Shown here in pieces: positions 1,722 to 61,202 of a stretch of DNA of 64,000 nucleotides (the stretch's first letter is position 1; every line of letters starts with the position of its first letter). The notes below the pieces were generated by a model. The model searched no databases. It was not told where the DNA came from and saw only the letters and a program-made list of their open reading frames with translations. The stretch is from Lentisphaerota bacterium (GTDB taxonomy: Bacteria > Verrucomicrobiota > Lentisphaeria > Victivallales > Victivallaceae): the NCBI GenBank assembly GCA_015061685.1, contig SUWD01000002.1:124001-188000 (forward strand). Direction: 5' to 3'. The position numbers and the translations under genes are program-made.

Positions 1722-2516
1722 ATGGCTGCGGCACCGGATAAAAGTACCCTGATCGTTTTGCCGCAGGTCGATTCCACCAATACTTACGCAAAAAATCATT
1801 TCTTTGAACTTGAAGATTGTACTGTCGTAGCCGCTGTAGAACAGACAGCCGGCAGGGGGCGTTTGGGCAGAAAATGGGTCACTTCTCCTGATACAGCACT
1901 TACCGTAACGGCTGTTTTCAAGAATATACAGCAGCCGTTTCACGCCGGGGCGATAGCCGGTCTCGCCGGCTTGGAATTGATCCGGGAATATCTGCCGGAT
2001 CATTTTGTCTTTTTTAAGTGGCCGAATGATATTTATGTCCGTGATTGTAAAATTTCAGGAATCCTTTGTGAAGGAGTTTTACTCAAAGGCAAACTTGCCG
2101 GAGTAGTTGCCGGTATCGGAATAAATGTCAATCAAAGTACCGATGAGATGAATTTACTGGATAATCCGGCGATTTCAGTTACCGCCCTGACCGGGAAAAA
2201 GTTTTTTCTGGAAAAAATGCGTTTTGAGCTTGCAGAAAAGATAAAAAAATACTATATTATATATCGATCAGATTCAGAGACCGTGCTTCAGTTGTGGCGA
2301 AAAGAAAATTGCCTGATTGGGGAGACTCTGGTTTTGAAAACTCCCGATGGAAAAATAAAGCAGGGGTGTTTTATGTCTATCGGGGCAGGGGGCGAGATGT
2401 TATTGCGTTCTTCCGATGGTGAAGTTTTTACTTTTTCCAGCGGAGATGTAAAAATAGATGCCTCTTTAATAAATTTCAAATTGTTGGAAGACAAGTATTA
2501 TAAACAAAGACGCTGA
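1722..2516 (+). CDS. birA: Biotin--[acetyl-CoA-carboxylase/decarboxylase] ligase
   Basis: A 264-residue group I biotin protein ligase that lacks the DNA-binding domain of E. coli BirA. It shows the catalytic-domain motifs STNTYAK (about residue 18), the biotinyl-AMP loop AGRGRLGRKW (about 44), KWPNDIY (about 102) and GIGINVN (about 130). A small SH3-like C-terminal domain follows. It attaches biotin to a lysine in acceptor domains. The two biotinyl domains of the OadA protein encoded just downstream are obvious substrates, and the gene sits 26 bp before oadG. That coupling of ligase and substrate is inferred from context; the enzyme assignment is solid. Confidence 0.93.
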   Translation: MAAAPDKSTLIVLPQVDSTNTYAKNHFFELEDCTVVAAVEQTAGRGRLGRKWVTSPDTALTVTAVFKNIQQPFHAGAIAGLAGLELIREYLPDHFVFFKWPNDIYVRDCKISGILCEGVLLKGKLAGVVAGIGINVNQSTDEMNLLDNPAISVTALTGKKFFLEKMRFELAEKIKKYYIIYRSDSETVLQLWRKENCLIGETLVLKTPDGKIKQGCFMSIGAGGEMLLRSSDGEVFTFSSGDVKIDASLINFKLLEDKYYKQRR

Positions 2517-2542: not shown

Positions 2543-2788
2543 ATGAGCGAAAAACTTCTCGCCGGACTTCAGTTGATGGTCTTCGGCATGGGGATGGTGT
2601 ATGTGTTCCTCATTGTCATGATCTTCTGCATGAAGTTGATGTCCAAGATCATTGCCCCGATAGCTGCAAAACAAAAGGCTGCAGAAGATGCCGCCAAAGC
2701 GGCCGCTGCCAAGCCTGCTGGTGCATCTGCCAATGATGCGGCTCTTGCGGCGGCGGCTGTTGCTGCCGTTGCTGCTGCACGTAAATAA
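2543..2788 (+). CDS. oadG: Na+-translocating decarboxylase gamma subunit (OadG-like)
   Basis: An 81-residue protein with one N-terminal membrane helix (LMVFGMGMVYVFLIVMIFCMKLM). A hydrophilic tail rich in Ala and Lys follows, the classic build of OadG, which anchors and assembles the decarboxylase complex. The gene is preceded by AAAGGAG and followed 29 bp later by the alpha subunit. The tail is low-complexity (long Ala runs) and lacks an obvious His-rich zinc-binding end such as that of Klebsiella OadG. The call rests on architecture plus context rather than on strong sequence signatures. Confidence 0.85.
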   Translation: MSEKLLAGLQLMVFGMGMVYVFLIVMIFCMKLMSKIIAPIAAKQKAAEDAAKAAAAKPAGASANDAALAAAAVAAVAAARK

Positions 2789-2817
2789 GTTTAATCAAAT
2801 TAAATACAGGTGTATAA

Positions 2818-6680: not shown

Positions 6681-7664
6681 ATGTTTCGAAAAATCTGTTT
6701 TATAATATTGGCATTTGCCTTTTTTTTGGTTCCGTGGCTTTGGAGTCCAGCTCGGGATTGGGCATCGGGGATAGCGGTGATCGCCGGAATCGTTTTTGCT
6801 GTTTGCTGGGGAAATCCTTTCAGTAAATATACTGCCAAAATCACATCTCCGTTGTTGGGTGCTTCTATTGTCGGAATGGGGTGCGGTATGAACCTGATCA
6901 AGGTGCTTTATGCCGGAGCCAGCGGCTTTTTTTATACATTTATTGGAATTGCTGCCGGTATCGGCTTGGGAGCATTATTCGGTAAATTGCTTAAAATGCC
7001 GAAAAATGCCACATTTCTGGTCAGTGTCGGGACATCAATATGCGGAGGCAGTGCCATTGCTGCCGCAGCTCCTGCATTGAAAGCCAAAGCTCATGAAGTA
7101 GCAATGGCATCGGCAACAGTTTTTGCTTTGAATGCGGTGGCATTGCTCATTTTTCCGGTAATCGGCAGAGCTCTGGGATTTGATGAGAATCAATTTGGCT
7201 TCTGGGCAGCTTTGGCAATTCATGATACCAGTTCGGTGGTCGGAGCTTGTTTTCAGTATGGAGAAAAAGCTCTGGAAATCGGTACGGTAGTCAAGTTGGC
7301 AAGGGCACTTTGGATCGTGCCGGTGACATTGTTTCTTTCATGGTTTATTGCGGATAAAAACAGTGAGTCAGAAAGAGATGATCGTAAGTTGAAGTTTCGA
7401 GTCCCGTGGTTTATTCCCGGATTTTTAATTGCAGCAGCTTTAGTGACCTGGTTGCCTTTTTTACAGGGGGCAGGGGGATGTGTCAAAGAGATTTCCAAAT
7501 ACCTTATGGTTGTCACATTGTTTCTGATTGGTGCAAATTTGAGCCGGGAAAAGCTTAAAGAATTGGGGATGCGTCCAGTTATTCATGGTGTGATTTTGTG
7601 GTTGATACTTGGCATATCCTGGTGTGCAGCGATCCGTTTGGGATTCGTAAATTGTTCAATGTGA
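6681..7664 (+). CDS. YeiH/UPF0324 family transporter (putative sulfate or sulfonate exporter)
   Basis: A 327-residue membrane protein with about ten hydrophobic helices. It shows features of the YeiH/Cons_hypoth698 family: GASIVGMGCGMNL near residue 63, VSVGTSICGGSAIAAAAPALKAK near 114 and AIHDTSSVVGA near 180. Family members are annotated as putative sulfate exporters, but few have been tested, so the substrate is unknown. The start ATG follows GGGGG at 6672-6676. It is a single-gene transcript bracketed by the oad terminator and its own terminator at 7690-7729. Confidence 0.85.
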   Translation: MFRKICFIILAFAFFLVPWLWSPARDWASGIAVIAGIVFAVCWGNPFSKYTAKITSPLLGASIVGMGCGMNLIKVLYAGASGFFYTFIGIAAGIGLGALFGKLLKMPKNATFLVSVGTSICGGSAIAAAAPALKAKAHEVAMASATVFALNAVALLIFPVIGRALGFDENQFGFWAALAIHDTSSVVGACFQYGEKALEIGTVVKLARALWIVPVTLFLSWFIADKNSESERDDRKLKFRVPWFIPGFLIAAALVTWLPFLQGAGGCVKEISKYLMVVTLFLIGANLSREKLKELGMRPVIHGVILWLILGISWCAAIRLGFVNCSM

Positions 7665-9446: not shown

Positions 9447-10493
9447 ATGAAAAGCAATGTATATTTTTTCCCTTTGTCCGGGAAATCATCTTCGCTGCAA
9501 CGCTCTCAAGCGGGCAGGGCGGTTTTGGAAAAATTGTTGTCTGCAGAAAAAACGGAGCTTTGCAATGAAGTCCCGATAAAGCTCCATTTCGGTGAAAAAG
9601 GCAATCACACCTATTTGAAACCTGAATTGTACGATGGTATAATTGATTTATTGGAAGAAAAGAGTGTCAAAAGCTGTTTTACTGAAACAAGCGTACTTTA
9701 TGGCGGAGAGCGTTTTTCTGCTGAAAAGCACAAGAAATTGGCAGAAAAACATGGTTTCACCCGTTTGCCGGTGGTAATCGCAGATGGTGATAACGGAGAA
9801 AAATCAAAACTGATTCCTGTTGACGGAGGAAGACATTTTCAAAGTGCGGCAATCGCAGAAATGCTTGCTGAATCAGAACAGGTTCTGGTAGTTTCCCATT
9901 TCAAGGGGCATATTCTCGCCGGTTTCGGTGGAGCGTTGAAGCAACTCTCCATGGGGTTTGCAGCAAAGGGCGGCAAAATGGCAATGCATTTGAGCGTTAC
10001 CCCAAAAATAAAAAGCTGGAAGTGTAAAAAATGCAAGCTTTGCATGAGCCGCTGTAATGCCGGAGCGATCATTGCCGGAGATAAATTTTTCATAGATCCG
10101 GCGAAGTGTGTCGGCTGCGGAGCGTGTTTTGCTATTTGTCCAGCCAAAGCAATTTCCGTTTTCAGTTTCGCCGGATTGAAAAACATGCTTTTCGGCAGAC
10201 GCTTTTTCCGGGAAAAACTTGCGGAATATGCGTATGCTTCCCATCATGGTAAAAGGAATATTTATCTGACCTACGCGGTTGATATTACACCGGGGTGTGA
10301 TTGTGAACCCCGGAGAATGTCATCCTGTGTGCCGGATATAGGTGTCTTTGCCTCACTTGATCCGGTCGCATTGGATTCTGCCTGTTATGATGCTGCGGTC
10401 AAAGCCGGAAAACATTTCCGGGGACATGAACAGCTCGCTTATGCCGAAAAATTGCAGATCGGTTCAATGGATTATAAACTGGTCGAAGTATGA
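9447..10493 (+). CDS. DUF362 domain protein with two [4Fe-4S] ferredoxin motifs
   Basis: A 348-residue protein. The N-terminal part (about 1-185) and the C-terminal part resemble the DUF362 fold. Between them is a bacterial ferredoxin insert with two CxxCxxCxxxC clusters (CKKCKLCMSRC near 192 and CVGCGACFAIC near 221). Such proteins are putative cytoplasmic iron-sulfur oxidoreductases; no reaction has been settled for the family. It overlaps the next gene by four bases (ATGA), so the two are translationally coupled. Confidence 0.85.
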   Translation: MKSNVYFFPLSGKSSSLQRSQAGRAVLEKLLSAEKTELCNEVPIKLHFGEKGNHTYLKPELYDGIIDLLEEKSVKSCFTETSVLYGGERFSAEKHKKLAEKHGFTRLPVVIADGDNGEKSKLIPVDGGRHFQSAAIAEMLAESEQVLVVSHFKGHILAGFGGALKQLSMGFAAKGGKMAMHLSVTPKIKSWKCKKCKLCMSRCNAGAIIAGDKFFIDPAKCVGCGACFAICPAKAISVFSFAGLKNMLFGRRFFREKLAEYAYASHHGKRNIYLTYAVDITPGCDCEPRRMSSCVPDIGVFASLDPVALDSACYDAAVKAGKHFRGHEQLAYAEKLQIGSMDYKLVEV

Positions 10494-12230: not shown

Positions 12231-12852
12231 CGATCACCTGACGGATTTTTTGAGCGATAGTTTCCCGGTCAAGAGTTGCATCAATAACACAGAATCTTTC
12301 CGGCTCACGTTCTGCAAGGTGAAGAAAGGACTGTCTTACCTTACGGTGGAATTCCAACTTTTCGTTTTCAAACCGGTCAAAACCCTCACTCTGACGTTTC
12401 ACAATACGGGCGAAACCTGCTTCCGGAGCGAGATCCATAAGGATCGTTAAATCCGGTTTCCTTCCGGCTGAAGCAAAATCATTCAAATAATCGACAGTTT
12501 CCATGGACATGTTTCTTGCCCCTCCCTGATATGCACAGGTCGAGTCGCTGAAACGGTCACAAATCACCACTTTCCCGGCTGCAAGGGCAGGGAGTATCTT
12601 TTCTCTGACATGTTGAGCCCTTGCCGCTTCCATTAAAAGCAATTCGGTTTCGTTGTGAAGCTTTTCTTCCGTATGATGGGATTTTACAACCCCGCGGATT
12701 ACTTCCGCCAAATCTGTGCCGCCCGGTTCCCGGGTGATAACACATTCCAAGCCGCGTGATGTCAGATATTCGGCAAGTTTCAATACCTGTGAACTTTTGC
12801 CGGCCCCCTCCGGGCCTTCAAAAGTGATAAAAAATCCTTTGATTTTTGACAT
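12214..12852 (-). CDS. tmk: Thymidylate kinase
   Basis: A 212-residue dTMP kinase. P-loop GPEGAGKSSQ at about residues 13-22, the DR-type motif REPGGTDLAE near 40, DRFSDSTCAYQGGAR near 98 and a LID region RIVKRQSEGFDRFENE. It makes dTDP for DNA synthesis. Length and motifs are typical. It is the first gene of the tmk-holB pair and diverges from the purH-like gene. Confidence 0.95.
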   Translation of the reverse strand: MSKIKGFFITFEGPEGAGKSSQVLKLAEYLTSRGLECVITREPGGTDLAEVIRGVVKSHHTEEKLHNETELLLMEAARAQHVREKILPALAAGKVVICDRFSDSTCAYQGGARNMSMETVDYLNDFASAGRKPDLTILMDLAPEAGFARIVKRQSEGFDRFENEKLEFHRKVRQSFLHLAEREPERFCVIDATLDRETIAQKIRQVIDVALF

Positions 12853-18672: not shown

Positions 18673-19689
18673 ATGAAAAGAGGAATTATCGGAGCTGGAA
18701 ACTGGATTCAGGATCGGGTAAAAACCATTGACCGGTGGCCTGGAGAGGGAAATCTTTGCAATATTACCAAAGAGGAAGCTGCTCCCGGCGGCGGTCCGGC
18801 TAATGTCCTTTTTGATATCAGTGCTGCTGATCCGGCATTGCCGCTTTATGCTGCCGGACGTATCGGCACTGACGGTGAAGGTGATTATCTGCTTGATGAA
18901 ATCACCAAACGCGGAATTGATGCCCGTTATATGTTCCGTACCAATGGAAGAACCAGTTACACCGACGTTATGTCCGGCGAGGGGAAGAGGACCTTTTTCC
19001 ATTGCCGTGGAGCGAATGCAGAACTTTGTTTTGACGACCTCAAAGATATCGACGTTCCGGCAAAGTATTTCTATCTTGCTTATTTGCTGCTTTTGGACAC
19101 TATGGATTCCGAAGATCCTGAATATGGCACTCAGGCTGTCCGTACCTTGAAAACCATGCAGGATAAAGGTTATGAAACCGTTGTGGATTTCGTTTCCGAA
19201 GCTCCGGAAAAATTCCGGACCAAAGTTTTGCCTGCTCTGCCGTACATTGACCACTTGATTGTCAATGAAGTGGAAACGGCCTGCTGTACCGGAGAAGCTC
19301 TGCGGGATGATGATGGCAAATTGCTTGCAGATAAACTTCCGGCTGCCGTAAAATTCCTTTTTGACAAAGGTGTAAAAAAGACAGTTGTGATTCATTTTCC
19401 GGAAGGTGCCTGTGCCGGTTTGCCGGATGGAACTTATCTCTATGTTCCCAGTTTTTACATTGCCAAAGATGATATTGTAGGAAGTAACGGGGCAGGGGAT
19501 GCTTTCTGTGCCGGTGTACTTTATGGTCTGCATGAAAACTGGGATCTGAAAAAATGTCTTACCATCGGTGGGGCATTCAGTAACTTCAATCTTCGTTCTG
19601 CGACTGCCAGCGGCGGAGCTGTTTCACTGGATAAAATGTTGAAATTCGTTGAAACAGCCAAGTTGTCTCCGTTGCCGGAAAATATGTAA
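18673..19689 (+). CDS. PfkB family sugar kinase
   Basis: A 338-residue ribokinase-fold kinase. It has the N-terminal GGGPANVLFDIS motif near residue 40 and the C-terminal anion-hole motif VGSNGAGDAFCAG near 272 with the catalytic Asp. It is cotranscribed with the aldolase/dehydrogenase fusion, so it probably phosphorylates the ketose that the aldolase cleaves. No RhaB-type rhamnulokinase is in the window although rhaA is. This kinase is therefore a candidate stand-in, which is inference. RBS AAGGAAGGA lies ahead of the ATG. Confidence 0.88.
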   Translation: MKRGIIGAGNWIQDRVKTIDRWPGEGNLCNITKEEAAPGGGPANVLFDISAADPALPLYAAGRIGTDGEGDYLLDEITKRGIDARYMFRTNGRTSYTDVMSGEGKRTFFHCRGANAELCFDDLKDIDVPAKYFYLAYLLLLDTMDSEDPEYGTQAVRTLKTMQDKGYETVVDFVSEAPEKFRTKVLPALPYIDHLIVNEVETACCTGEALRDDDGKLLADKLPAAVKFLFDKGVKKTVVIHFPEGACAGLPDGTYLYVPSFYIAKDDIVGSNGAGDAFCAGVLYGLHENWDLKKCLTIGGAFSNFNLRSATASGGAVSLDKMLKFVETAKLSPLPENM

Positions 19690-19709: not shown

Positions 19710-22112
19710 ATGCTTAATGCTCAAAACGGACCGGCGATTACAATTGACGGCGGTTTGGAAAGTACAACGTATCTGCTTCGCTTGCGTGAACCGGTTGTGT
19801 TTCCATACACTCTCGGATCGGCACAAGCATCGGCAGATTGTGATTTGGCCGCTCTTTCAGCGGCGATGAAACACGATCGGGTCGTTGCAGTTTTTAATGA
19901 GATTCCGACTGTCAGGGAATTGAAAAACCTGCAAATTGGCGGCACATTGCCCCAATTTCAGGATGGAACAACCCGGCGTTGTGCAGTAGGAACATTGGCG
20001 AGAGTAGTCAAGGAGATCAGTTTGCCGGATGGAACAAAAAAAATTGTCATCCGGGGATTGAAAAGAATTATTGTCTCCAGTTTGCTCACTTCAGCTGATG
20101 GTACGCCTTTAGTGCGTTACCGGGTAATGAATGAAACCGGCAATGCCGATGCGATGAAACTTGCCGGAAGATTAAAGGCAGTTCAGCAGATGTTTGCCGA
20201 ATTATCATCCATTCAACCGGGATTTCAGGAGGAGTTGGCACTTGGTTTTCAAGGCAACATTTCTCCTGCCCGCTGCACGGATCAGGTCGCTGATGTTGTA
20301 AATCTTTCTTATGCGGAAAAGTTGCTTTTGCTGGCTTCCGGAGATTTGGAAAGCCGTATGGAATTGCTCACTGTTTTGCTCAACCGGGAGTTGGAAAACA
20401 ATCGGATGGGGATGCAGTTGCAAGCCCAGGTACAGGAGGCAATGGGGGCATCTCAACGGGAATTTTTCCTCAGAGAACAGCTTAAGGCGATCAAGAATGA
20501 ATTAGGCGAATTAAGCAGCAACTCCGATGTAGTCGAGCTGATGGAAAAGATGAGCAATTGTCAACTGCCGGAATTGGTAGAGACAACTGTAAAAAAAGAA
20601 CTTGAGCGTCTTGAGCTGCTCCCGCAAAATGCTCCGGAGTATCATATCAGCTACAATTATATAAATACGATGCTTGACATACCGTGGATGGTTTTCAGCC
20701 AGGATTTGCTGGATTGTGCAAAAGCCGCAAAAGTCCTTGATGAAGATCACTACGGTCTGGAAGATGTCAAGGTGAGGATTCTTGAGTTTCTTGCCGTTAT
20801 GCAGCGACGCAGCAGTACCGGCGATTGCCGGGCTCCGATCCTCTGCCTTGCAGGTCCTCCCGGTGTCGGGAAAACCTCTATCGGCAGATCTATTGCCAGA
20901 GCAATGGGACGGGAATTTATCCGGGTTTCTTTCGGGGGTGTCAGAGATGAAGCGGAAATCCGTGGTCACCGACGCACTTATGTCGGAGCTATGCCGGGAC
21001 GAATTGTTCAGAATTTAAAAAGGGCAGGGACTTCCAATCCGGTATTCATGCTTGATGAGATCGATAAACTTGCTCATGATTTCCGTGGCGATCCGGCATC
21101 TGCTTTGCTGGAAGTGCTGGATCCTGAACAAAACAATGCGTTTAATGATAATTTTGTTGAATTGCCGCTTGATTTATCCAAGGTGTTTTTTATAGCTACA
21201 GCCAACGTATTGGAAGATATTCCCGGACCGTTGCGTGATCGTATGGAAATCATCCGTTTGTCCGGATATACTGCTTTGGAAAAGAAAGAGATCGCCAAGC
21301 GTTATCTTATTCCGCGTCAGCTGAAAGAGAATGGATTGGATAATTGCAAAATCACATTCAGAACATCTGCCGTCAACGAGGTGATCGAGGGATATACAAT
21401 GGAAGCCGGTGTCCGGGAACTTGACCGGATCATTGCCCGTGTGTGCCGGAGAATCGCCAGAAAAATGATTGCCGGAGAACTGAACGAGAATAATCCACTT
21501 CCCGTTGATAATAAAATGGTAAACAGCTTGCTTGGCGCCCGCAAATATTTGAAAGATCTTGCACCTGCACCATTGCCGGGATGTGCAACCGGCATGGCAT
21601 GGACAAGTGCCGGCGGTGTGGTTCTCCCGGTTGAAACGGCGGTTCTTCCCGGCGGCAAAGGTAATTTGAAATTGACCGGATCATTGGGGAAAGTCATGCT
21701 TGAATCAGCGGAGACAGCTTTTACATTCATCCGTTCACAAGCTCCCAAAAGCATTAAGCCGGAATTCTTTTACGAGAATGATTTTCACATTCATGTCCCC
21801 GATGGAGCCACTCCCAAAGATGGACCGTCAGCAGGCATAACGATTTCGCTGGCTTTGATGTCAAGATTGCTCAACAAACCTTTGATTCCCCGTCTGGCGA
21901 TGACCGGAGAAATCACATTGCAGGGCAGGGTAACTGCAATCGGCGGAGTAAGAGAGAAACTGGTTGGAGCTATTCGAGCCGGGATCAAGACGGTACTTGT
22001 GCCGCAAGATAACCGCAAAGATGTCGAGGAATTGCCGGAAAACATCCGTAAATCTCTTGATATTCATTTTGTCAGTTCTTTTGCTGAAGCTGTAAAAATC
22101 GCATTCAAATAA
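19710..22112 (+). CDS. lon: ATP-dependent protease Lon
   Basis: An 800-residue LonA. The N-terminal substrate-binding LAN domain (about 1-200) is followed by a coiled-coil segment. The AAA+ module has Walker A GPPGVGKTS near 382 and Walker B VFMLDEIDK near 447. The protease domain has catalytic Ser707 in PKDGPSAG and Lys750 in REKLVGA. It degrades damaged and regulatory cytoplasmic proteins. Full length for the family. It lies 20 bp after the PfkB kinase gene, which looks accidental rather than functional. Confidence 0.96.
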   Translation: MLNAQNGPAITIDGGLESTTYLLRLREPVVFPYTLGSAQASADCDLAALSAAMKHDRVVAVFNEIPTVRELKNLQIGGTLPQFQDGTTRRCAVGTLARVVKEISLPDGTKKIVIRGLKRIIVSSLLTSADGTPLVRYRVMNETGNADAMKLAGRLKAVQQMFAELSSIQPGFQEELALGFQGNISPARCTDQVADVVNLSYAEKLLLLASGDLESRMELLTVLLNRELENNRMGMQLQAQVQEAMGASQREFFLREQLKAIKNELGELSSNSDVVELMEKMSNCQLPELVETTVKKELERLELLPQNAPEYHISYNYINTMLDIPWMVFSQDLLDCAKAAKVLDEDHYGLEDVKVRILEFLAVMQRRSSTGDCRAPILCLAGPPGVGKTSIGRSIARAMGREFIRVSFGGVRDEAEIRGHRRTYVGAMPGRIVQNLKRAGTSNPVFMLDEIDKLAHDFRGDPASALLEVLDPEQNNAFNDNFVELPLDLSKVFFIATANVLEDIPGPLRDRMEIIRLSGYTALEKKEIAKRYLIPRQLKENGLDNCKITFRTSAVNEVIEGYTMEAGVRELDRIIARVCRRIARKMIAGELNENNPLPVDNKMVNSLLGARKYLKDLAPAPLPGCATGMAWTSAGGVVLPVETAVLPGGKGNLKLTGSLGKVMLESAETAFTFIRSQAPKSIKPEFFYENDFHIHVPDGATPKDGPSAGITISLALMSRLLNKPLIPRLAMTGEITLQGRVTAIGGVREKLVGAIRAGIKTVLVPQDNRKDVEELPENIRKSLDIHFVSSFAEAVKIAFK

Positions 22113-22848: not shown

Positions 22849-22874
22849 TGATTGTAAGCAGGGCAGGGGGCAAA

Positions 22875-23498: not shown

Positions 23499-25337
23499 TT
23501 ATTTATCTATTGTAAACAGATCTTTCTTGCGGATATACATTACTGCCGCAATGATCATTAAAATGCCGACAGAAATCAACGCTGTAATACGCCACAAAGA
23601 ATCAAGACCGGATAAATCAATCAGAATAATTTTGAAACAGGTCAATGCAAAAAGCAATCCTCCCAGATGCCGCAATACCGGCAGTGCTTTTTTTATTCCG
23701 GTCAAAGTCAGCACAAGAGCGATAATACTCCACAAAACAGATACACCTCCCAAACGGAATGACGGCAGATAATTTTCAAGGAATTCATATGTTTCGCAAC
23801 TGAGGTAAATAAAGAGCATTGCTCCGCCGACAATAAACATGACATTTGATACGACACTCATCCATTCATATTTTTCTCTGCACTGATTTTTCTTTATAAA
23901 AGATGCTGCGATGAGTAATGATACGGCAAATGTACCATACGTCAACAGATTGTAACGCAGTTCGATCAAGTAACCACTGTCAGCCGGTTCGGTGAAAGTC
24001 AAAACGGCATAAATAAACAGCACCAAGCTGCTGGCTGTAAAAAGTTTTGTGTAAAAATATTTTGCCATGAGAGCTGAAGATAATGCCGTAAGTGATAAAA
24101 CCGTGGAATGCCAGAAGTATTTCCTTAAGGCAAATTCCTCCGCACATACCAAAGCCAATATTGCAAATGCAAGGAAACAGAACTTATTCTTTTTATCCGG
24201 ACAAAAACGGAAAACCAGCAAATTGATCAATACCGCCAATATGGAATTGCATGCGGCCAATATGCCGGATTGATCGATGTGATTGGCAAAAAGCAGCGAA
24301 AATATGAAAAAATTCACATTTGCAATGCTCCACAAATAATACTCAACTTTCTCCAAATCGGATCTATTCCAAAAGGGCAGGGTACAGAGAAGATAATTTA
24401 TTCCCGATAAACCCAACAGCCAATAACTGTAAAGACCTGTTTGTTCACATTCGTATTTTGAAAACAGATAAACGATCGGATAAGCGTATCCGACTGCCAG
24501 CAGGCATCGAAGCGATGGCCAATTTTTCCGGAAAGCTGTAAAAGCCAAACCGGAGTTCAGCAATGCAAAATAGCAGATAAAAGGGTAGGGTACCGGCAGA
24601 TCTGCCGCCATAAAAACAGGAGCAATATATCCTCCGAGGCCTCCAACAAAGGCGGTGACCGGAGAGTTGCGATGCCAGGAACAGGCAATGGAAGCAAGGA
24701 CGGTTGCTATCGTCAATATTGAGATCGTTTTTATGCCGAACATACCGTAAAAACTGTATGCGGCAAAAGAGGTGAAAAACATAAGTGCAAATCCGCCGCC
24801 GGATATAGTTAAATTGAGTTTGCGATACTTGCCACGGGCAAAAAAGTGTCCTGCTGCGGCAGCAGCTGTCCCGGCAAAATAAGATATCCCAATACGCAGG
24901 GCAGGGGAAAACATTTTTCTGTCAAACGAATATTTCAGTAAAAAGCCGGCCCCGACCAATAAAAGTAATACTCCACACCGGATCAACCATGTCGTGACAA
25001 CTGCATATTCCGGAGCAACATTGTCCGGACGGAAATTTTCTCCGACAGACAGCCAATTCCAGAATTTGTTCCATGGGGTATTGTTTTTATTCTGCTCCTG
25101 TGGCAACAGAATTGCTTTGTAAACAACCGGTTCTGCTTTTTTTACTTCCGGATATGTTTCTGTGGTCGCAGCAGTCGAATTGTCTACTTCCTGACAGTCT
25201 GCATTGTTTTTATTATAAAGGTGATATTCTATCCGGGAAACAGTGTTTTGAATCCTTTCGATCTTGTTAAAAAGAAAAAATATAATAGAAAGCAACAAAA
25301 GAACAAGCAATATAGTGGCCGTAAGCAACAATTCCAT
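23499..25337 (-). CDS. DUF2339 polytopic membrane protein
   Basis: A 612-residue protein with an N-terminal membrane helix and a short coiled coil (KIERIQNTVSRIEYHLYNKN). A hydrophilic linker follows to about residue 110, then about 18 hydrophobic helices. The start of the membrane part (TWLIRCGVLLLLVGAGFLLKYSFDRKMFSPALRIGISYFAG) and GGGFALMFFTSFAAYSFYG are typical of DUF2339. Function unknown. It converges with the deoxyribosyltransferase gene (2 bp between stops). It is AT-richer and more hydrophobic than its neighbours. Confidence 0.85.
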   Translation of the reverse strand: MELLLTATILLVLLLLSIIFFLFNKIERIQNTVSRIEYHLYNKNNADCQEVDNSTAATTETYPEVKKAEPVVYKAILLPQEQNKNNTPWNKFWNWLSVGENFRPDNVAPEYAVVTTWLIRCGVLLLLVGAGFLLKYSFDRKMFSPALRIGISYFAGTAAAAAGHFFARGKYRKLNLTISGGGFALMFFTSFAAYSFYGMFGIKTISILTIATVLASIACSWHRNSPVTAFVGGLGGYIAPVFMAADLPVPYPFICYFALLNSGLAFTAFRKNWPSLRCLLAVGYAYPIVYLFSKYECEQTGLYSYWLLGLSGINYLLCTLPFWNRSDLEKVEYYLWSIANVNFFIFSLLFANHIDQSGILAACNSILAVLINLLVFRFCPDKKNKFCFLAFAILALVCAEEFALRKYFWHSTVLSLTALSSALMAKYFYTKLFTASSLVLFIYAVLTFTEPADSGYLIELRYNLLTYGTFAVSLLIAASFIKKNQCREKYEWMSVVSNVMFIVGGAMLFIYLSCETYEFLENYLPSFRLGGVSVLWSIIALVLTLTGIKKALPVLRHLGGLLFALTCFKIILIDLSGLDSLWRITALISVGILMIIAAVMYIRKKDLFTIDK

Positions 25338-25548: not shown

Positions 25549-25576
25549 ACTTAACATAACGCACATTATGCGACGT
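25549..25576 (-). other. dif: Candidate dif site (XerCD chromosome dimer resolution)
   Basis: Read on the minus strand: XerC arm ACGTCGCATAA (25576-25566), central TGTGCG (25565-25560), XerD arm TTATGTTAAGT (25559-25549). The E. coli site is GGTGCGCATAA, TGTATA, TTATGTTAAAT. The XerD arm matches 10 of 11. The XerC arm matches 7 of 11 to E. coli, including the whole CGCATAA core, and 10 of 11 to the broader RNTKCGCATAA consensus. It lies in the 354-bp intergenic stretch between the DUF2339 gene and fabD. It sits inside the only interval where the orientation of GGGNAGGG octamers flips (24906-26542). XerC/XerD would resolve chromosome dimers here under FtsK control. Confidence 0.9.
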
Positions 25577-25691: not shown

Positions 25692-26606
25692 ATGAAAGCG
25701 TTTTTTGTGTTTTCCGGTCAGGGAGCTCAATTTCCCGGTATGGGGAAGGATATTGCAGAAAATTCAGCTGCGGCAAAATCAATTTTCGAAGCCGCAGATA
25801 ATGCATTAGGTTACAGCTTGAGTGATATCATATTCAATGGACCGTCCGAAAAACTCACCCAGACCATTTATTGTCAGCCGGCAATCTATACGATGAGTTG
25901 TGCGGCACTGGCTGCATTCCGGGAAAAATTTCAGGATATCAAGCCGGTAGCGTGTGCAGGTTTGAGTCTTGGGGAATATGGTGCCCTCTATGCAGCCGGA
26001 GCTTTTGACTTTGTTTCCGGATTGAAATTATTGGCAAAGCGGGCTGAATTGATGGATGAAGCATGTCGTGCCGCTGAAGGAGCTATGGCCTCGGTCATAA
26101 ATGGTGATCCGGAGATCATTAAGGATGTTTGCGGCAAATGCGGTATTGATGTTGCAAACTTCAACAGCCCCGGTCAAATTGTTATTTCCGGAGAAAAAAA
26201 TGGCGTTGCCGCAGCGGTTGATGCTTTGAAGGCTGCCGGTATCCGCAAGGTGATCGTCCTCAATGTTGCCGGTGCATTCCACTCCAGAATGATGAAATCT
26301 GCCGGAGATGCCCTGCTCCCGGTATTGGAACAAACAGCTTTTGCCCAGCCCGCTTGTCCGGTGTATCACAACTTTACTGCAGCTCCAGCTGTTGATGCAG
26401 CTGCTTTGCGGGCAAATCTTGCCGCTCAAGTTGCAGGATCTGTCCGCTGGGAAGAGTGTGTGCGGGCAATGGCAGCTCTTGGAGCCAATACCATGATCGA
26501 ATTCGGTCCCGGCAATGTTCTTACCAAACTTTGTTCCCGTACCCTGCCCGATGTAAAAACTTTCAATATCGGAAGTTTTGATGAAATTAATTCCTTCGTT
26601 CTGTGA
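25692..26606 (+). CDS. fabD: Malonyl-CoA:ACP transacylase
   Basis: A 304-residue FabD. The N-terminal FSGQGAQFPGMGKD, the nucleophile elbow GLSLGEYGALYAAG with the active Ser near residue 91, and the catalytic His in GAFHSRMM near 200 are all present. It loads malonyl groups on acyl carrier protein for fatty-acid synthesis. The gene is not next to other fab genes. It is followed by a HAD phosphatase 17 bp downstream and is the first gene to the right of the dif-like site. Confidence 0.94.
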   Translation: MKAFFVFSGQGAQFPGMGKDIAENSAAAKSIFEAADNALGYSLSDIIFNGPSEKLTQTIYCQPAIYTMSCAALAAFREKFQDIKPVACAGLSLGEYGALYAAGAFDFVSGLKLLAKRAELMDEACRAAEGAMASVINGDPEIIKDVCGKCGIDVANFNSPGQIVISGEKNGVAAAVDALKAAGIRKVIVLNVAGAFHSRMMKSAGDALLPVLEQTAFAQPACPVYHNFTAAPAVDAAALRANLAAQVAGSVRWEECVRAMAALGANTMIEFGPGNVLTKLCSRTLPDVKTFNIGSFDEINSFVL

Positions 26607-26623: not shown

Positions 26624-27283
26624 ATGATGATTGAAGCTCTTTTCTTTGACTTTGACGGTACCATCGGTGCGACAGAGGTCGATATTCGTGCTGCCTGGTT
26701 GTCTGCGATCAATAAACTGGAGCTGGAGTGCAAAGATTTCGACCGCATATTCCGGGTAGGCCCACCGGTACGGGATACTGCTGCCATGCTTTTTCCGGAA
26801 ATGCCATCCGAAGAGCTGGCTGTTCTTGTAACTGCATACAAATCGTTCTATGATGAAGCAGAAATTTATCAGGCAGTCCCCTACCCCGGTGTTGAGGATA
26901 TGCTTCATAAATTGGCAGAGAATGGTAAAAAAATTTATATTGTTACCAACAAAAGAATCAAACCTTTGCTAAAACTGGTTCGTCAGTTTGATTTACTGCC
27001 ATTGTGCCATGGTTTATTTGCTCCGGATATTGTTGATCCGGACAACCATATGAGCAAAACTGAATTGCTGGCTCTTGCTGTGCGTATATCCGGCTGTTCC
27101 CATGAAAGAGCTTTGATGATTGGTGATACAGAACTTGATATTCATGCTGCCCATACAAACGGCATTGCGGCATGCGGGGTCACCTGGGGATATGGTTCAC
27201 TGAAAAATCTTCAGACCGCCAATCCTGAGTTTATTGTTGACACTCCGCAGGATTTGACCTGGATCACTTCAGTGAAGCAATAA
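26624..27283 (+). CDS. HAD-superfamily phosphatase (phosphoglycolate phosphatase-like)
   Basis: A 219-residue HAD hydrolase of subfamily IA. Motif I is FFDFDGTIGATEVD (residues 7-20), the motif II region is YIVTNKR, and motif IV is MIGDTELDIHAAHTNGI near 165. The cap region between motifs I and II resembles Gph/PGP proteins. The substrate is a small phosphorylated metabolite, not definable from sequence. ATGATG at the start gives two possible starts (26624 or 26627). Its 3' end overlaps the convergent marC-like gene by 20 bp. Confidence 0.83.
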   Translation: MMIEALFFDFDGTIGATEVDIRAAWLSAINKLELECKDFDRIFRVGPPVRDTAAMLFPEMPSEELAVLVTAYKSFYDEAEIYQAVPYPGVEDMLHKLAENGKKIYIVTNKRIKPLLKLVRQFDLLPLCHGLFAPDIVDPDNHMSKTELLALAVRISGCSHERALMIGDTELDIHAAHTNGIAACGVTWGYGSLKNLQTANPEFIVDTPQDLTWITSVKQ

Positions 27284-27884
27284 AGCCCCCTGCCCCGGAA
27301 AGCATCATTTGCATTGCAACAGCCATTACGATCAATCCGGTCAAACGGATCACCGGTCCGGCAAAGGCAAAAAATTCCAACGTCTTGGTAATGTGACGGC
27401 TCAACAACATCAAGCACCAGTTCGTCAGCAGTGCCGGAATCAGAGACAACAGTGTTGACAGAGTGCCGTACTGCATGGAAAAGGATATCGTTGCCGCAAT
27501 TGTGCCGGGGCCGGCTATCAATGGTGCAGCCAGAGGTACAACTGATAATTCATCAAAAGATGGATGTGTCTGTTCATCCCGGTCATGATAAAAAACGCCT
27601 TTTTGCACAGCGGCCATGCCGGAAAATAATAAAACCAATCCACCTGAAAGCTGCAAAGCATAAAGTTTCACCCGGAATACATGTTCCAATACAAAATACC
27701 CGCCGAGACAGCATCCAAGTAAAATCAAAAAAGCAAATAAAGAAGCTCGGCATGAAATACGAATCACCTCTTTCGAGCTTAAAGATGGCCGCTGGGCCGT
27801 AAGAAAGAATATTTTACTTGCCGGATTTATCAATGCAATAAAATACAAAGAATTTTCCAAAACCGTTGAAATTTCGTGCCACAT
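27264..27884 (-). CDS. MarC family membrane protein
   Basis: A 206-residue protein with six membrane helices. It has MarC (UPF0056) hallmarks: LFFIALINPASKIFF-type N-terminus, FRVKLYALQLSGGLVLLFSGM near 70, VVPLAAPLIAGPGTIAATI near 110. Transport function is unproven for this family. Start 27884 is chosen because AGGTGA lies just before it and it follows the stop of the CPBP gene. An upstream TTG at 27911 would overlap that gene. Third gene of the tsaE-CPBP-marC operon. Confidence 0.85.
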   Translation of the reverse strand: MWHEISTVLENSLYFIALINPASKIFFLTAQRPSLSSKEVIRISCRASLFAFLILLGCCLGGYFVLEHVFRVKLYALQLSGGLVLLFSGMAAVQKGVFYHDRDEQTHPSFDELSVVPLAAPLIAGPGTIAATISFSMQYGTLSTLLSLIPALLTNWCLMLLSRHITKTLEFFAFAGPVIRLTGLIVMAVAMQMMLSGAGGFIASLK

Positions 27885-27888: not shown

Positions 27889-28554
27889 TCACCTGATATT
27901 TGTTTCACCAAAAATATTTACAAAAAATGCCATAGTGTTGACGACAGAATGCAGCAGCATTGCAGTCAAAAGATTTTCCCGGATGAGATACGCCAATTGA
28001 AATGCCAGTCCCATAATCAGCAACCCGGGGATCCCCATCAAAAAGAAGTGAGCAAGCGAAAAGATCAGAGACGTACCAAAAAAGGCTGTCGGCGGATGTA
28101 TGTGGTGCCATGAACTGTAAATTATCCGTCGAAAAAGGACTTCTTCCACAACCGGAGTTATGACACACACCGAAATATACAGCCGGATTTGATCCTGTCT
28201 TGCTGCGGTACTGATCATTTGCAGCATATCCTGGCTCTCTGCATACTTGACACCCATGCTGTCCCAAAACAATTTCCATGGAGCAGCTGCAAGCATGGAG
28301 AGTAAAATTATCGCAACATATCCTCCGGTGACCAATGCAAAATCAGAGAATTCCAACGGCTTTATTCCCAATTGTCTGCAGGTGCCGATACAAGCCGGCA
28401 GAGCCGCCAGAACCGAGAAAAAAGGGACCTGTATTTCCGGGATCTTGCACAAAAACAATATCCCCGGCAGAAGCAGCAGGCAAAAAATGATCCACCCTGC
28501 CCGCAAAGGAGCTAAAGGGAGTTTTTCCTGCCACGGCTCAGGATTGAGTTTCAT
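27889..28554 (-). CDS. CPBP family intramembrane metalloprotease (CAAX protease-like)
   Basis: A 221-residue polytopic membrane protein. It carries the Abi/CPBP active-site motifs EEVLFRR (EExxxR, near residue 133) and SLAHFFLMG (FxxxH type, near 165). About seven hydrophobic helices. Members include prenyl-protein CAAX proteases and bacterial immunity or regulatory proteases; the substrate here is unknown. Its start overlaps the tsaE end by 17 bp. Confidence 0.85.
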   Translation of the reverse strand: MKLNPEPWQEKLPLAPLRAGWIIFCLLLLPGILFLCKIPEIQVPFFSVLAALPACIGTCRQLGIKPLEFSDFALVTGGYVAIILLSMLAAAPWKLFWDSMGVKYAESQDMLQMISTAARQDQIRLYISVCVITPVVEEVLFRRIIYSSWHHIHPPTAFFGTSLIFSLAHFFLMGIPGLLIMGLAFQLAYLIRENLLTAMLLHSVVNTMAFFVNIFGETNIR

Positions 28555-34460: not shown

Positions 34461-35317
34461 TGGAAAAAATCGGTACATTTACAGATTTTTTACGGTGTAA
34501 TACAGCGGCATTTGATGCAGTATTCTTTGATATAGATGGTACTTTAACCAAAGGGAAAGCCGCCCTGCCCGGAGCTGAAAGGCTTTTTGAATATCTGCAT
34601 GACATACAAATGCCGTACGTTCTTGTTACCAATGATGCAACGACTCCGCCGGAAAAGAAAGCTTATTATCTGCAAAAAAGCGGTATCAATGTTGATCCAT
34701 CCCGGATCATCTCTGCCGGAAAAGCATTGAAATACTGGATACGGGAGCATAATTGTACCGGAATGAATTTTTTTCAATATGGTACTCTTGATCCGGAGAA
34801 AGTTGCAGCAGCTGACATTACAGTTATTACTGATCCGGATAAGGCGTTTTTGTGCCAAGGGGTTCTTGGCGGCGGTTACGGAGATTGGCAAAGTATCGAA
34901 GCGGCATTTAATTTATTGCTCTCGCATCCGGAATATCCCTTTGTTGTAGCCAATCCGGATTGTATTTATCCATCGTTTCGGGTGCCTGGTTTCATTGGTT
35001 TCGGTCCCGGAGCGGTTGCTAATTTTATCTGTCAGCAACTGCAAAAGTTGGGAATTGATAAAAAACCGTTTTTTCTGGGCAAACCTTATGATCCGATTTA
35101 CCGTTGTGCATTGACATTTCTGAGTGAAAATTTCCCGGAAAGATCTTTTTTTGTGAACCGGATCATTATGGTGGGGGATTCTTTGGATTCTGATATTGCC
35201 GGAGCTTGTGCGAATGGTTTGCAAAGTGCTCTGGTGTTAAGCGGGATCACTGATATAAAACAAGTTGATGGGATAGATAAAAAGCAGCATCCCGATTTTA
35301 TTTTTTCCGGAGTATGA
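34460..35317 (+). CDS. HAD-IIA (NagD-like) sugar phosphatase
   Basis: A 285-residue HAD hydrolase. The motif I FFDIDGTLTKGKAALPGA and the C2-cap sequence VLVTNDATTPPEKKAYYLQKSG are classic NagD/NPPase type. Motif IV is MVGDSLDSDIAGACANG near 238. Start ATG 34460 overlaps the stop of the NahK-like gene; an in-frame TTG at 34457 is less likely. The position suggests dephosphorylation of a hexose or hexosamine phosphate in the same pathway. Substrate not defined by sequence. Confidence 0.85.
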   Translation: MEKIGTFTDFLRCNTAAFDAVFFDIDGTLTKGKAALPGAERLFEYLHDIQMPYVLVTNDATTPPEKKAYYLQKSGINVDPSRIISAGKALKYWIREHNCTGMNFFQYGTLDPEKVAAADITVITDPDKAFLCQGVLGGGYGDWQSIEAAFNLLLSHPEYPFVVANPDCIYPSFRVPGFIGFGPGAVANFICQQLQKLGIDKKPFFLGKPYDPIYRCALTFLSENFPERSFFVNRIIMVGDSLDSDIAGACANGLQSALVLSGITDIKQVDGIDKKQHPDFIFSGV

Positions 35318-35323: not shown

Positions 35324-36274
35324 ATGGACAAAAAAAATCTGGTCGTTGTTTGCGGAGCAAATCCGGCATGGCAGAAAACATTGTTTTTCAGTGAAGTTAT
35401 ACCCGGCAAAGTAAACCGGGCGGTAAAGGAAGAAAATTATCCGTCCGGCAAAGGAGTTAATTTTTGCCGGGCATTACGCTGTTCAGGGTTGGCAGATTCC
35501 TGTCTTATCCAGTTTGCAGGAGGGATCAATGGACAAAGACTTTGTTCAGGGTTGGATAGTGCCGGATTCAAACATGTCACCATACCGGTCAAAGCGGAAA
35601 CCCGTAATTGCATAACCTGCTTGGATGCAAATGGTAATATGACGGAATTGATCGGTGTTTCACACCGGGTTTTACCTGAAGAAGGTGTAGATTTTTTGGA
35701 AAAACTGAATATTTTGCTCGACAACGCAGATATTTTTGCCATTACCGGTTCCCTGCCCGATAACAGTGATCCGGAAATTTATGTAAAAGCAGTAAAATCA
35801 GCCGTTGAGAAAAAGGTGACATTACTGCTGGATACCTTGGTTCGACTCGATTATATATTGAGTTTGCCGGGAAAAATGATTTTGAAAGTTAATAAGGAAG
35901 AATTTTTCAAAATTACCGGCAAAGATGATATTATTGCCGCACACTGTTGGGCGAATAATAAATATCCCGGCAAAATTTTTGCCGTTACCGACGGAGAAAA
36001 TTTTGCAACATTATCCATTGAAAAAAGTTTGTGGAAATATGGGTTGCCGTCTGTTTCAGTGGTTAATCCTCTGGGGGCCGGAGATACAGCATCCGCAGTG
36101 ATGTCAGGAGCATTGGTATCCGGAATATCCCCGCAGGAGAGTTTCCGTCTGGCACTGGCGGCTGCATCTGCAAATTGTCAAACGCCGACGGCCGGAGAAT
36201 ATTCTCTTGAAACAGCGGCTTTTTTTGCAGAACAAATAACGATCACTCAACACAAATTGCCGGTTCAATTATGA
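35324..36274 (+). CDS. PfkB family hexose-phosphate kinase (1-phosphofructokinase / tagatose-6-phosphate kinase type)
   Basis: A 316-residue ribokinase-fold kinase of the FruK/LacC branch: N-terminal GANPAWQKTLFF, GKGVNFCRAL near residue 43, and catalytic NPLGAGDTASAVMSG near 245. FruK/LacC enzymes phosphorylate fructose-1-P or tagatose-6-P. In this hexosamine operon a GalNAc/galactosamine-derived tagatose phosphate would fit, which is inference. The stop overlaps the next start by ATGA. Confidence 0.83.
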   Translation: MDKKNLVVVCGANPAWQKTLFFSEVIPGKVNRAVKEENYPSGKGVNFCRALRCSGLADSCLIQFAGGINGQRLCSGLDSAGFKHVTIPVKAETRNCITCLDANGNMTELIGVSHRVLPEEGVDFLEKLNILLDNADIFAITGSLPDNSDPEIYVKAVKSAVEKKVTLLLDTLVRLDYILSLPGKMILKVNKEEFFKITGKDDIIAAHCWANNKYPGKIFAVTDGENFATLSIEKSLWKYGLPSVSVVNPLGAGDTASAVMSGALVSGISPQESFRLALAAASANCQTPTAGEYSLETAAFFAEQITITQHKLPVQL

Positions 36275-41984: not shown

Positions 41985-43693
41985 GCAGGATCAGCAAATT
42001 GAAAATCGGTCTCGCCAGTTGCGGCATTGCCGCCGGCGGAGATGCCGTCCTTGAAGCATTGAAAAAAGCGACCGATCTGCCGATCGCGGAAGTCGGCTGC
42101 ATAGGACACTGTTACGCAGAACCTCTGGTTGAAGCCTGTCTGGATGACGGTTCATCAATCATGTACGGCAATGTCAAAGCGGATGAAAAAAGTATTGCCA
42201 ATATCCTTTCTCTCGGGGAAAGCGGCCGCTTTGAGATCCCGGCTGCCCGGAAAGCCAAAGAACTGCTCAAAGTTCTCGCTCTGGCAGGAAAAATCGTGCC
42301 GACTAAGCTTGAAGATTATATCGCAAACGGCGGTTACGAGGGATTGAAAAAAGCTCTGACCATGAAACCGGAAGAGGTAATCAATGAGGTTAAAATTTCC
42401 GGTTTACGCGGACGTGGCGGCGGTGGATTTCCCACCGGCATGAAGTGGGGATTTCTGGCTGCCAAACCCGGTTTTGACAAAACTGTTATCTGCAATGCCG
42501 ACGAGGGTGACCCCGGAGCATTCATGGATCGCTCTTTGATGGAGAGTGTGCCGCATCAGGTACTTGAGGGCATGCTGATTGCAGCTTATGCTACCGGAGC
42601 AAGCAATCTGGTCATTTACTGTCGTGCCGAATATCCGCTGGCAATCAAGCATCTGAAAATAGCCATCGGACAGATCTACGATGCAAAACTCAATGTATTC
42701 GGTGACCGCAGTGTGGAAATTTCCATCAAAGAAGGTGCCGGAGCTTTTGTCTGCGGCGAAGAAACCGCTTTGATCGCCTCTCTTGAGGGACAACGTGGCA
42801 TGCCCCGTTTCCGTCCCCCCTTCCCCACTGATCGGGGATATCAGGGGAAACCCACGATGATCAATAACGTCGAAACATTCGGCAATATCCCGGTAATTCT
42901 CCGTGACGGCGGCGACACCTTTGCCGCAACCGGTTCTGAGGGAGGCAAAGGCACAAAACTTTTTGCTCTTGCCGGCGACTTGAAATACCCCGGTCTGGTT
43001 GAAGTTCCCATGGGAACCACACTTAACGAGATCGTCTTTGAAATTGGCGGAGCTGACAGAGAACACGTCAAAGCAGTTCAGACTGGAGGACCCTCCGGCG
43101 GCTGTATTCCGGTTGAACTTTTTGATACTCCGGTGGATTATGATTCACTGCGTTCACTTGGAGCGATCATGGGTTCCGGCGGTATGATCGTGATCGGCAA
43201 AGACCGCTGTATGGTGGAAACGGCCCGTTATTTTCTGGACTTTACTCACAGGGAGAGCTGCGGCAAATGCACATTCTGCCGGGTAGGAACCACCAGAATG
43301 TATGAAACTCTTGAGCGGATCGTCGCCGGAAAAGGCTGTGAAGCAGACCTTGAGTTACTGGAAGATCTCGGCAAAAAAATCAAAGCCGGTTCTCTCTGCG
43401 GTCTCGGACAGACAGCTCCCAATCCGGTATTGGCGACCTTGAGATTTTACCGTGATGAATATCTTGAACACGTCAATGAGCATAAATGCCGGGCAATGCA
43501 GTGCAATGCTCTGGTCGATATCGCACTGGATAAAGATAAATGTGTAAAATGCAAAATTTGTCTTAAGACCTGTCCGGTCAATGCGATCAGCGATGATTTC
43601 ATCATTGATCCGTCAATCTGTACCCGCTGCAACAGCTGTCTGGACAGCTGTCCCAAGCACGCCATCACCAGAGTGGCGAAAGGAGATAAATAA
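41981..43693 (+). CDS. NuoF-like NAD(P)H/FMN subunit with C-terminal ferredoxin
   Basis: A 570-residue protein of the HydB/HndC build. The N-terminal about 90 residues are a second thioredoxin-like domain. The NADH/FMN core has RGRGGGGFPTGMKW near residue 142, CNADEGDPGAF near 170 and GAGAFVCGEETALI near 255. The [4Fe-4S] motif SCGKCTFCRVGT is near 426. Two CxxCxxCxxxCP clusters lie at the end (about 515-560). It oxidises or reduces NAD(P)H on FMN and passes electrons through the clusters. This fits electron-bifurcating hydrogenases and related complexes. Confidence 0.92.
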   Translation: MSRISKLKIGLASCGIAAGGDAVLEALKKATDLPIAEVGCIGHCYAEPLVEACLDDGSSIMYGNVKADEKSIANILSLGESGRFEIPAARKAKELLKVLALAGKIVPTKLEDYIANGGYEGLKKALTMKPEEVINEVKISGLRGRGGGGFPTGMKWGFLAAKPGFDKTVICNADEGDPGAFMDRSLMESVPHQVLEGMLIAAYATGASNLVIYCRAEYPLAIKHLKIAIGQIYDAKLNVFGDRSVEISIKEGAGAFVCGEETALIASLEGQRGMPRFRPPFPTDRGYQGKPTMINNVETFGNIPVILRDGGDTFAATGSEGGKGTKLFALAGDLKYPGLVEVPMGTTLNEIVFEIGGADREHVKAVQTGGPSGGCIPVELFDTPVDYDSLRSLGAIMGSGGMIVIGKDRCMVETARYFLDFTHRESCGKCTFCRVGTTRMYETLERIVAGKGCEADLELLEDLGKKIKAGSLCGLGQTAPNPVLATLRFYRDEYLEHVNEHKCRAMQCNALVDIALDKDKCVKCKICLKTCPVNAISDDFIIDPSICTRCNSCLDSCPKHAITRVAKGDK

Positions 43694-47746: not shown

Positions 47747-48398
47747 CGGATTTGATTTTGCCGCTTATGCCGGAGAGTGCGGAGTTGCGGAACCTCTGAA
47801 ATTCAGAAATAATTGTGAGGTTTTGCGTCTGTTTCTGGAAGAATACAATCAGCACGTCAATTTGACCCGGTTGACCTCACCGGAGGACTTTTACTTCAAA
47901 CATGCAGTTGACTCTCTTTCCATTGCCCGGATCTTCCCGGAATTGACTGCTGCAAAATTATCTGTTGCCGATATCGGTTGCGGAGCCGGATTTCCGAGCT
48001 TGATTTTGGCGATGGCTTTTCCGCAATTGCAGATCACAGCGATCGACTCTATCGGCAAAAAGATCACCTTTGTCAAAGCAGCGGCGGAAAAATTGGGGTT
48101 GACCAATCTGACAGCTATCCACGGGCGGTCAATCGAGATGAATTGCAAAAAAGAGTATCAAAACCGTTTTGATATCGTTACAGCCCGGGCGGTTGCCCCC
48201 TCCCCTAAAATTTACCATGAAGCAAAATGCTTCATCAAAAAAGACGGAAGATTCATATTCTACAAGACCCCGCAGCAAGCTGCTGAAGAAGCTCCGCTGC
48301 TTGCCAATATCAAAGGCATATCATGGAGCAATACCTCCTCTTTTGAATTACCCGGCAACGCCGGAGAGCGGCTTTTTACCGTTGGAAAAAAGCCCTGA
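47739..48398 (+). CDS. rsmG: 16S rRNA (guanine-527 N7)-methyltransferase
   Basis: A 219-residue class I methyltransferase. NLTRLTSPEDFYFKHAVDSL is the family motif near residue 39. The SAM site VADIGCGAGFPSLILA is near 69. TARAVAP sits near 148. It methylates G527 of 16S rRNA. Start 47739 overlaps the lipoprotein stop; a start 51 bp upstream would reach further into that gene. The stop codon is inside the terminator hairpin of the facing DUF1703 gene. Confidence 0.94.
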   Translation: MIDGFDFAAYAGECGVAEPLKFRNNCEVLRLFLEEYNQHVNLTRLTSPEDFYFKHAVDSLSIARIFPELTAAKLSVADIGCGAGFPSLILAMAFPQLQITAIDSIGKKITFVKAAAEKLGLTNLTAIHGRSIEMNCKKEYQNRFDIVTARAVAPSPKIYHEAKCFIKKDGRFIFYKTPQQAAEEAPLLANIKGISWSNTSSFELPGNAGERLFTVGKKP

Positions 48399-56305: not shown

Positions 56306-56311
56306 GCTTAT

Positions 56312-60367: not shown

Positions 60368-61202
60368 ATTTGCTGAATTTTTTCTCGCTCCGGAGTGGGG
60401 CTTCCTGCGTTTTGCGATGCTTGTAGGTCTCTGCATATCCCCTGCCCTCGGCGTGATCGGAACCATGGTGGTTACCCGCCGCATTTCCTCTCTTGCCGGA
60501 GCAAGTACTCATGCGGCATTGGGAGGATTCGGTCTTGCCCTCTTTTTGCAGAGAGTTTGTATGCTTGAGTGGTTCACTCCGACTTTCGGTGCGGTCATCG
60601 GAGCTGTCGGAGCGGCAGTCGCAGTCGGTATTGTGAGTATTTACGCAAAAGAAAGAGAAGACACTGTTATTGGAGCCGTCTGGGCGATCGGAATGTCCAT
60701 CGGATTGCTTTTCCTCGACCGCACACCGGGATACGTGGATTGGCAGGGATATCTTTTCGGCAGTATTCTGCTTTTGAATAAGAGTGACCTTTATATGACC
60801 TTGATTCTGGATGCAATTATCCTGATCCCGGCTATAGTTCTCTTTCCCATGCTGCTTGCCCTGACCTTTGATGATACATTTGCCCGTCTGCGTGGAATAA
60901 AGGTAACGACCATCTATCTGGGATTGCTGATCCTTACCGCATTAACGATCGTCCTGCTGATAAATCTGGTTGGGATCATGCTGGTCATCGCTCTGCTTAC
61001 GCTGCCGTCAGCGGCGGCGGCATGTTACACCAATCATCTGCGGTCAACGATGATCCTGTCTGCGATTTTCAATGCCTGTTTTATATTTGCCGGCTTGCTT
61101 TTGAGCAGTCTGCTTGCCCTGCCTTCCGGACCTACGATCGTGGTTCTGGCTGGCGTGGTTTACGTTTTAAGCATCATCAGGAAAAAACATCTTTCAAAAT
61201 AA
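60360..61202 (+). CDS. znuB: Zinc ABC transporter permease
   Basis: A 280-residue ABC-3 family permease with about eight membrane helices. N-terminal SPALGVIGTMVVTRRISSLAGASTHAALGGFGLAL near residues 24-58 and ATTIYLGLLILTALTIVLLINLVGIMLVIALLTLPSAAAAC near 185-225 are family-typical. It moves the metal handed over by ZnuA through the inner membrane, powered by ZnuC. Coupled to znuC by overlap. Confidence 0.93.
   Translation: MNEFAEFFLAPEWGFLRFAMLVGLCISPALGVIGTMVVTRRISSLAGASTHAALGGFGLALFLQRVCMLEWFTPTFGAVIGAVGAAVAVGIVSIYAKEREDTVIGAVWAIGMSIGLLFLDRTPGYVDWQGYLFGSILLLNKSDLYMTLILDAIILIPAIVLFPMLLALTFDDTFARLRGIKVTTIYLGLLILTALTIVLLINLVGIMLVIALLTLPSAAAACYTNHLRSTMILSAIFNACFIFAGLLLSSLLALPSGPTIVVLAGVVYVLSIIRKKHLSK

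Follow-up and report, generated by a model that had tools for sequence, protein, structure and literature searches.

Does a 28-bp sequence in an intergenic gap of a Lentisphaeria genome mark the site where chromosome dimers are resolved, or does it only resemble one? The window analyzed here is a 64,000-nucleotide stretch of DNA corresponding to bases 124001–188000 of contig C48, in an assembly of 2,942,620 bases distributed over 61 contigs and 93.75% complete. A first-pass annotation had proposed that a dif site lies in this window, marking the dimer-resolution point and the approximate replication terminus, and had described such sites as little known in this phylum. The latter remark is justified. 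The survey of dif predictions across 16 phyla by Kono et al. 2011 (PMC3025954) lists three Verrucomicrobia but no Lentisphaerae; a full-text literature search, with most subscription journals outside its coverage, likewise returned no report of dif in Lentisphaerae.

The minus strand of the window from 25576 to 25549 reads ACGTCGCATAATGTGCGTTATGTTAAGT, exactly as quoted in the annotation, and the sequence is located in a 354-bp gap with divergent DUF2339 and fabD genes on either side (Table 1). The 28-mer is partly palindromic, with an 11-bp arm on each side of a 6-bp center. Using the E. coli dif sequence supplied in the annotation as the reference, 20 of 28 positions are equal (10/11 in the XerD arm, 3/6 in the center, and 7/11 in the XerC arm). 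All seven XerC-arm matches fall inside CGCATAA, so both the single-base difference claimed for the XerD arm and the shared XerC core hold. An E. coli-derived pattern, searched with up to three mismatches, matched the window only at this site (with one mismatch), against 0.07 matches in shuffled versions of the window. The search was extended to the whole 2.94-Mb assembly with CGCATAA-N6-TTATGTTAA, which occurs exactly once, at the dif site; there were no matches with one mismatch, the next best had two, and 26 more had three. A reversed control pattern produced comparable numbers only at the noise level. No better match therefore exists elsewhere in the assembly, although uniqueness is not absolute because the assembly is fragmented and incomplete. 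The gap is AT-rich and the three-mismatch pattern is frequent in the genome, as a chance likeness to dif would predict; the single exact match, with none at one mismatch, speaks against that reading. Elsewhere in the window, positions 56001–58000 have a G+C content of 35%, compared with approximately 46% around them, and are possibly acquired DNA.

Table 1. Coordinates of the dif site, its neighboring genes, and KOPS motifs (GGGNAGGG) in the window.
Feature	Position	Strand	Basis or remark
dif site, 28 bp	25549..25576	-	ACGTCGCATAA TGTGCG TTATGTTAAGT; unique in genome assembly; clade consensus
Putative XerC-binding arm, ACGTCGCATAA	25566..25576	-	predicted from homology; identical in many Lentisphaeria dif loci
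Central region, 6 bp, TGTGCG	25560..25565	-	putative strand-exchange region, predicted from position; part variable among relatives
Putative XerD-binding arm, TTATGTTAAGT	25549..25559	-	predicted from homology; 10/11 vs E. coli; conserved in order
fabD (malonyl-CoA ACP transacylase), right neighbor	25692..26606	+	Pfam PF00698; context only
DUF2339 membrane protein, left neighbor	23499..25337	-	Pfam PF10101; gene start 25337; context only
KOPS, toward dif	2383..2390	+	motif search
KOPS, toward dif	7468..7475	+	motif search
KOPS, toward dif	9512..9519	+	motif search
KOPS, toward dif	12585..12592	+	motif search
KOPS, toward dif	19490..19497	+	motif search
KOPS, toward dif	21022..21029	+	motif search
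KOPS, toward dif	21923..21930	+	motif search
KOPS, toward dif	22861..22868	+	motif search
KOPS, toward dif	24375..24382	+	motif search
KOPS, toward dif	24583..24590	+	motif search
KOPS, last of left arm	24899..24906	+	motif search; 0.65 kb to dif
KOPS, first of right arm, points back	26542..26549	-	motif search; 0.97 kb to dif
KOPS, toward dif	26879..26886	-	motif search
KOPS, toward dif	27288..27295	-	motif search
KOPS, toward dif	28495..28502	-	motif search
KOPS, toward dif	34563..34570	-	motif search
KOPS, toward dif	35751..35758	-	motif search
KOPS, toward dif	42818..42825	-	motif search
KOPS, toward dif	48198..48205	-	motif search
KOPS, toward dif	52492..52499	-	motif search
KOPS, toward dif	60440..60447	-	motif search
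KOPS, toward dif	63577..63584	-	motif search

Judged by the relatives of its fabD, the genome belongs to Lentisphaeria/Victivallales. Among 198 genomes representing this class, 125 carry the dif core when up to one mismatch is allowed (116/137 within the order and 9/61 outside it). Among the 34 members of the genus, the six that lacked it are all ≤76% complete. Conservation extends to both arms throughout the clade, which is a further argument against chance, and the ACGT left end, unlike its E. coli counterpart, is typical of these organisms. The centers are variable among relatives, including within the genus. The site is found 116 bp upstream of fabD, and this position is kept in several relatives, raising the alternative that the 28-mer is an operator or terminator of fabD that happens to resemble dif. 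Within the genus, fabD is found ≤1.5 kb from dif at 6 of 27 loci, a minimum count because contig ends truncate several of the loci, and the neighbor differs at most of the others; in more distant relatives, no dif lies close to fabD. Since the 28-mer moves between neighboring genes, a role as a fabD regulatory element was rejected as extremely improbable. Additional sites were noted in two relatives. G161 has a second dif-like site (C149:7312, L188) with the center CGGGTG, possibly belonging to a Xer-using element. G150 contains two identical dif-like sites in direct repeat, 486 bp apart (C65:5367 and 5853, L177); these adjoin unread bases and are possibly an effect of assembly.

The orientation of KOPS motifs was analyzed on the entire 228,447-bp contig C48, where dif occupies 149549–149576. 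All 34 forward copies of GGGNAGGG are located to the left of dif and all 18 reverse copies to the right, so that 52 of 52 point at the site (p ~4e-16 under random orientation, by our own arithmetic). Dinucleotide shuffles of the contig contained approximately 20 motifs in total, in mixed orientation. The most polarized of all octamers on C48 is GGGCAGGG (39:0). The last forward KOPS starts at 148899 and the first reverse KOPS at 150542; this reversal, which was absent from the first-pass annotation, narrows the point of FtsK convergence to 1.64 kb around dif. Strand skew was computed on the same contig and on samples of a relative assembled in one contig (G084; 3.66 Mb). On C48, the cumulative TA skew reaches its maximum at 147.5 kb, 2.1 kb from dif, and the cumulative GC skew peaks at 171.8 kb, 22 kb from dif, on a plateau spanning approximately 150–180 kb. 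In G084, the 20 kb to the left of dif have a GC skew of +0.067 and the 20 kb to the right a skew of −0.123, with KOPS distributed 3:0 and 0:2 in the same flanks. Sampled blocks farther from dif mostly have the same skew signs, with exceptions at 0 and 3.30 Mb. The KOPS reversal and the nearby skew maxima support assignment of the locus as the dimer-resolution point and approximate terminus. Given the uniqueness of the 28-mer, its conservation in the clade, and the convergence of KOPS upon it, chance likeness was rejected and is vanishingly improbable.

Secondary dif-like sites do exist in relatives, and the 28-mer could in principle be one of these, as the attachment site of a mobile element or the end of an inverton, with the true dif elsewhere. 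No inverted or direct partner for it was found in the host genome assembly, and an element or inverton end was rejected for the lack of such a partner. The 28-mer also sits at the switch in KOPS orientation and skew, has core genes, among them lon and fabD, around it, and lies beside fabD in six relatives of the same genus. A secondary Xer site is thus highly unlikely.

The genes for the cognate machinery are all present in the host genome. XerD (contig C22) scored 346 bits on TIGR02225 (cut-off 329.6), and our reading of its alignment with the solved E. coli XerD (1a0p) identified the catalytic RHRY residues. The best match of XerC (contig C59) is TIGR02224, at 320.6 bits against a cut-off of 335.15; the protein falls 14.5 bits below this equivalog threshold, though it exceeds the general Xer cut-off (NF001399). 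FtsK (contig C43) possesses both the motor and the gamma domain (89.6 bits on PF09397) and aligns with the solved FtsK structure 2ius across the IGYNRAA stretch. Separately, contig C8 of genome G000 encodes three adjacent tyrosine recombinases in the same direction (~950–4180; L005, L088–L090), resembling a recombinase-in-trio element, and a dif-like palindrome, TACATAAGCGATCTTATGTAAA, is located approximately 0.8 kb past the trio.

The 28-mer is almost certainly the chromosomal dif of this Lentisphaeria bacterium, a gut organism. The observations behind this are the sequence itself, its single occurrence in the assembly, the genes for both recombinases and FtsK, the reversal of KOPS orientation, the change of skew, and the retention of the site in relatives. 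The conditions that the annotation had named as refuting it were all checked, and none applied. Counting against it are the 22-kb offset of the GC-skew maximum, the XerC score slightly under its cut-off, and the fragmented, incomplete assembly. We infer from homology that XerCD bind, are activated, and recombine there. In the proposed mechanism, FtsK at the division septum would load on KOPS, which are oriented toward dif on both sides, and would translocate a dimeric chromosome until its two dif copies are brought together. The gamma domain of FtsK would then activate XerD at dif, and XerC and XerD, seated on the two 11-bp arms, would exchange strands in the 6-bp center and resolve the dimer. 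This dif is of the same kind as known dif sites; its function is ordinary and its position newly mapped. It locates the terminus region and dimer-resolution point of a Lentisphaerae chromosome and places an E. coli-type KOPS–FtsK–XerCD–dif system, down to the motif itself, in a phylum that has received little study. The consensus of the 28-mer can assist in orienting and completing draft assemblies from these bacteria.

The more interesting outcome concerns relatives, some of which carry 5–20 dif-like sites. The 198 class genomes were searched for two inverted cores, 88–118 bp apart, with their XerC arms outward. Such pairs occur in 13 genomes (G087, G089, G094, G095, G099, G102, G143, G145, G146, G154, G162, G163, and G188; L104–L154 and L205–L224), with a maximum of 21 pairs in G188, and the reversed control pattern had no matches in the same 198 genomes. 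Three of the 13 (G154, G162, and G163) belong to the genus. The pair search found none in the host genome, and a sample of approximately 250 genomes from elsewhere in the phylum, beyond this class, also had none. The elements measure ~125–150 bp end to end and are located at the starts or putative promoters of genes. Their anatomy was examined in 57 distinct pairs (114 sites) from the 13 genomes; the search pattern itself dictates the letters GCATAA and TTATG. Positions that it leaves open are still dif-like (TC before the core and T after TTATG), and the outer XerD arm is looser. The 6-bp center is identical within 54 of the 57 pairs, and none of the 114 sites has the center of its own chromosomal dif, if each genome is assumed to have one dif, represented by its unpaired clade-consensus site. 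In the case of Vibrio phage VGJ, the center lacks homology on its XerD side, and this prevents XerD from acting (PMC5357621); by analogy, the differing centers may insulate the switches from recombination with dif. Variant arrangements were also encountered. G148 contains approximately 19 copies of the site GTCGCATAA-TATGCG-TTCTGTTAAGT (L204, L224, and further places). At the two loci read, they lie where pseudopilin genes begin: one locus has an inverted pair, and the other has same-direction copies in tandem pilin genes ~1 kb apart, through which pilin genes could be deleted or shuffled. In a Lentisphaeria MAG from sheep colon (RGIG5373; L039:680–806), a diverged dif-like inverted pair is found at a pseudopilin start approximately 5 kb upstream of fabD.

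In most of the ~133-bp elements, a pseudopilin gene starts inside the element, with its start codon and ribosome-binding site, and reads through one dif-like site. The pseudopilins have weak DUF1559 and N_methyl matches, both just under cut-off. The ~157-bp elements of G143 and G154 are upstream of long AIDA-repeat adhesins (PF16168 in both of those scanned), and a family-2 glycosyltransferase gene follows one of the elements in G102. Orientation was scored by comparing the present and flipped states for a ribosome-binding site and an in-frame start; 27 elements were ON, 12 OFF, and 6 undecided, and both states were present within each of G188, G089, and G146. An orthologous locus shared by two species (G087 and G089) is in opposite states: the distal flank is 88% identical over 356 bp, and the spacers align only with one of them flipped (scores of 12.5 vs −16.5; shuffles −16.3, SD 3.1). 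Similarly, the spacers of paralogous loci L129 and L134 in G188 are 79.5% identical when one is flipped and 39.2% when it is not, and both flanks retain the same order. Element L139 separates two divergently oriented pseudopilin genes, of which one is ON and the other OFF.

Candidate enzymes were sought in ten genomes. No tyrosine recombinase besides XerC and XerD was found in G143 (94% complete), G089 (82%), or G099 (78%), no serine recombinase was found in G154, G163, or G146, and no recombinase type other than XerC/XerD was common to all ten. XerCD is therefore the best candidate, and the incompleteness of the genomes leaves room for an overlooked invertase. Comparison among these relatives shows dif-ended invertible switches, with XerCD as their probable driver. 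Some members of the order have thus probably recruited their own XerC/XerD dimer-resolution system to phase variation, with the recombinases inverting DNA at the start regions or putative promoters of genes for pseudopilins, AIDA adhesins, and glycosyltransferases. If XerCD does drive the switches, phase variation of surface pilins and adhesins would be tied to the chromosome-segregation machinery, a link that is testable.

The literature search, with most subscription journals outside its coverage, turned up no description of dif-like invertons; the nearest precedents are other inversion systems. Xer-type inversion is known in Ureaplasma, where XerC acts at mba (PMC3599477), and at the Vpma locus of Mycoplasma agalactiae (PMC11868660). 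As proposed for the Lentisphaeria elements, surface proteins in these mollicutes are switched when a Xer-type tyrosine recombinase inverts the segment bounded by two short inverted sites. The putative dif of Ureaplasma, however, is bound by another recombinase, CodV (PMC3599477), whereas the inverted sites in Lentisphaeria are themselves dif-like. The invertons of Akkermansia, a member of the same wider group, resemble them as invertible elements controlling surface structures (PMC13343947) but have CGGATT..AATCCG repeats; the 114 Lentisphaeria sites compared are dif-like instead. For the host dif itself, the sites predicted in three Verrucomicrobia species represent the same system in a sister group, with placement apparently checked by skew rather than KOPS (PMC3025954). 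The closest likeness is to the dif/XerC/XerD/FtsK/KOPS system of E. coli, which shares the 28-bp layout, all but one base of the XerD arm, the core of the XerC arm, both recombinases, the FtsK gamma domain, and the same KOPS consensus converging on the site. The Lentisphaerae version differs in the outer XerC arm (ACGT here, GGTG in E. coli) and in the center (TGTGCG here, TGTATA in E. coli), the latter varying even within a single genus.
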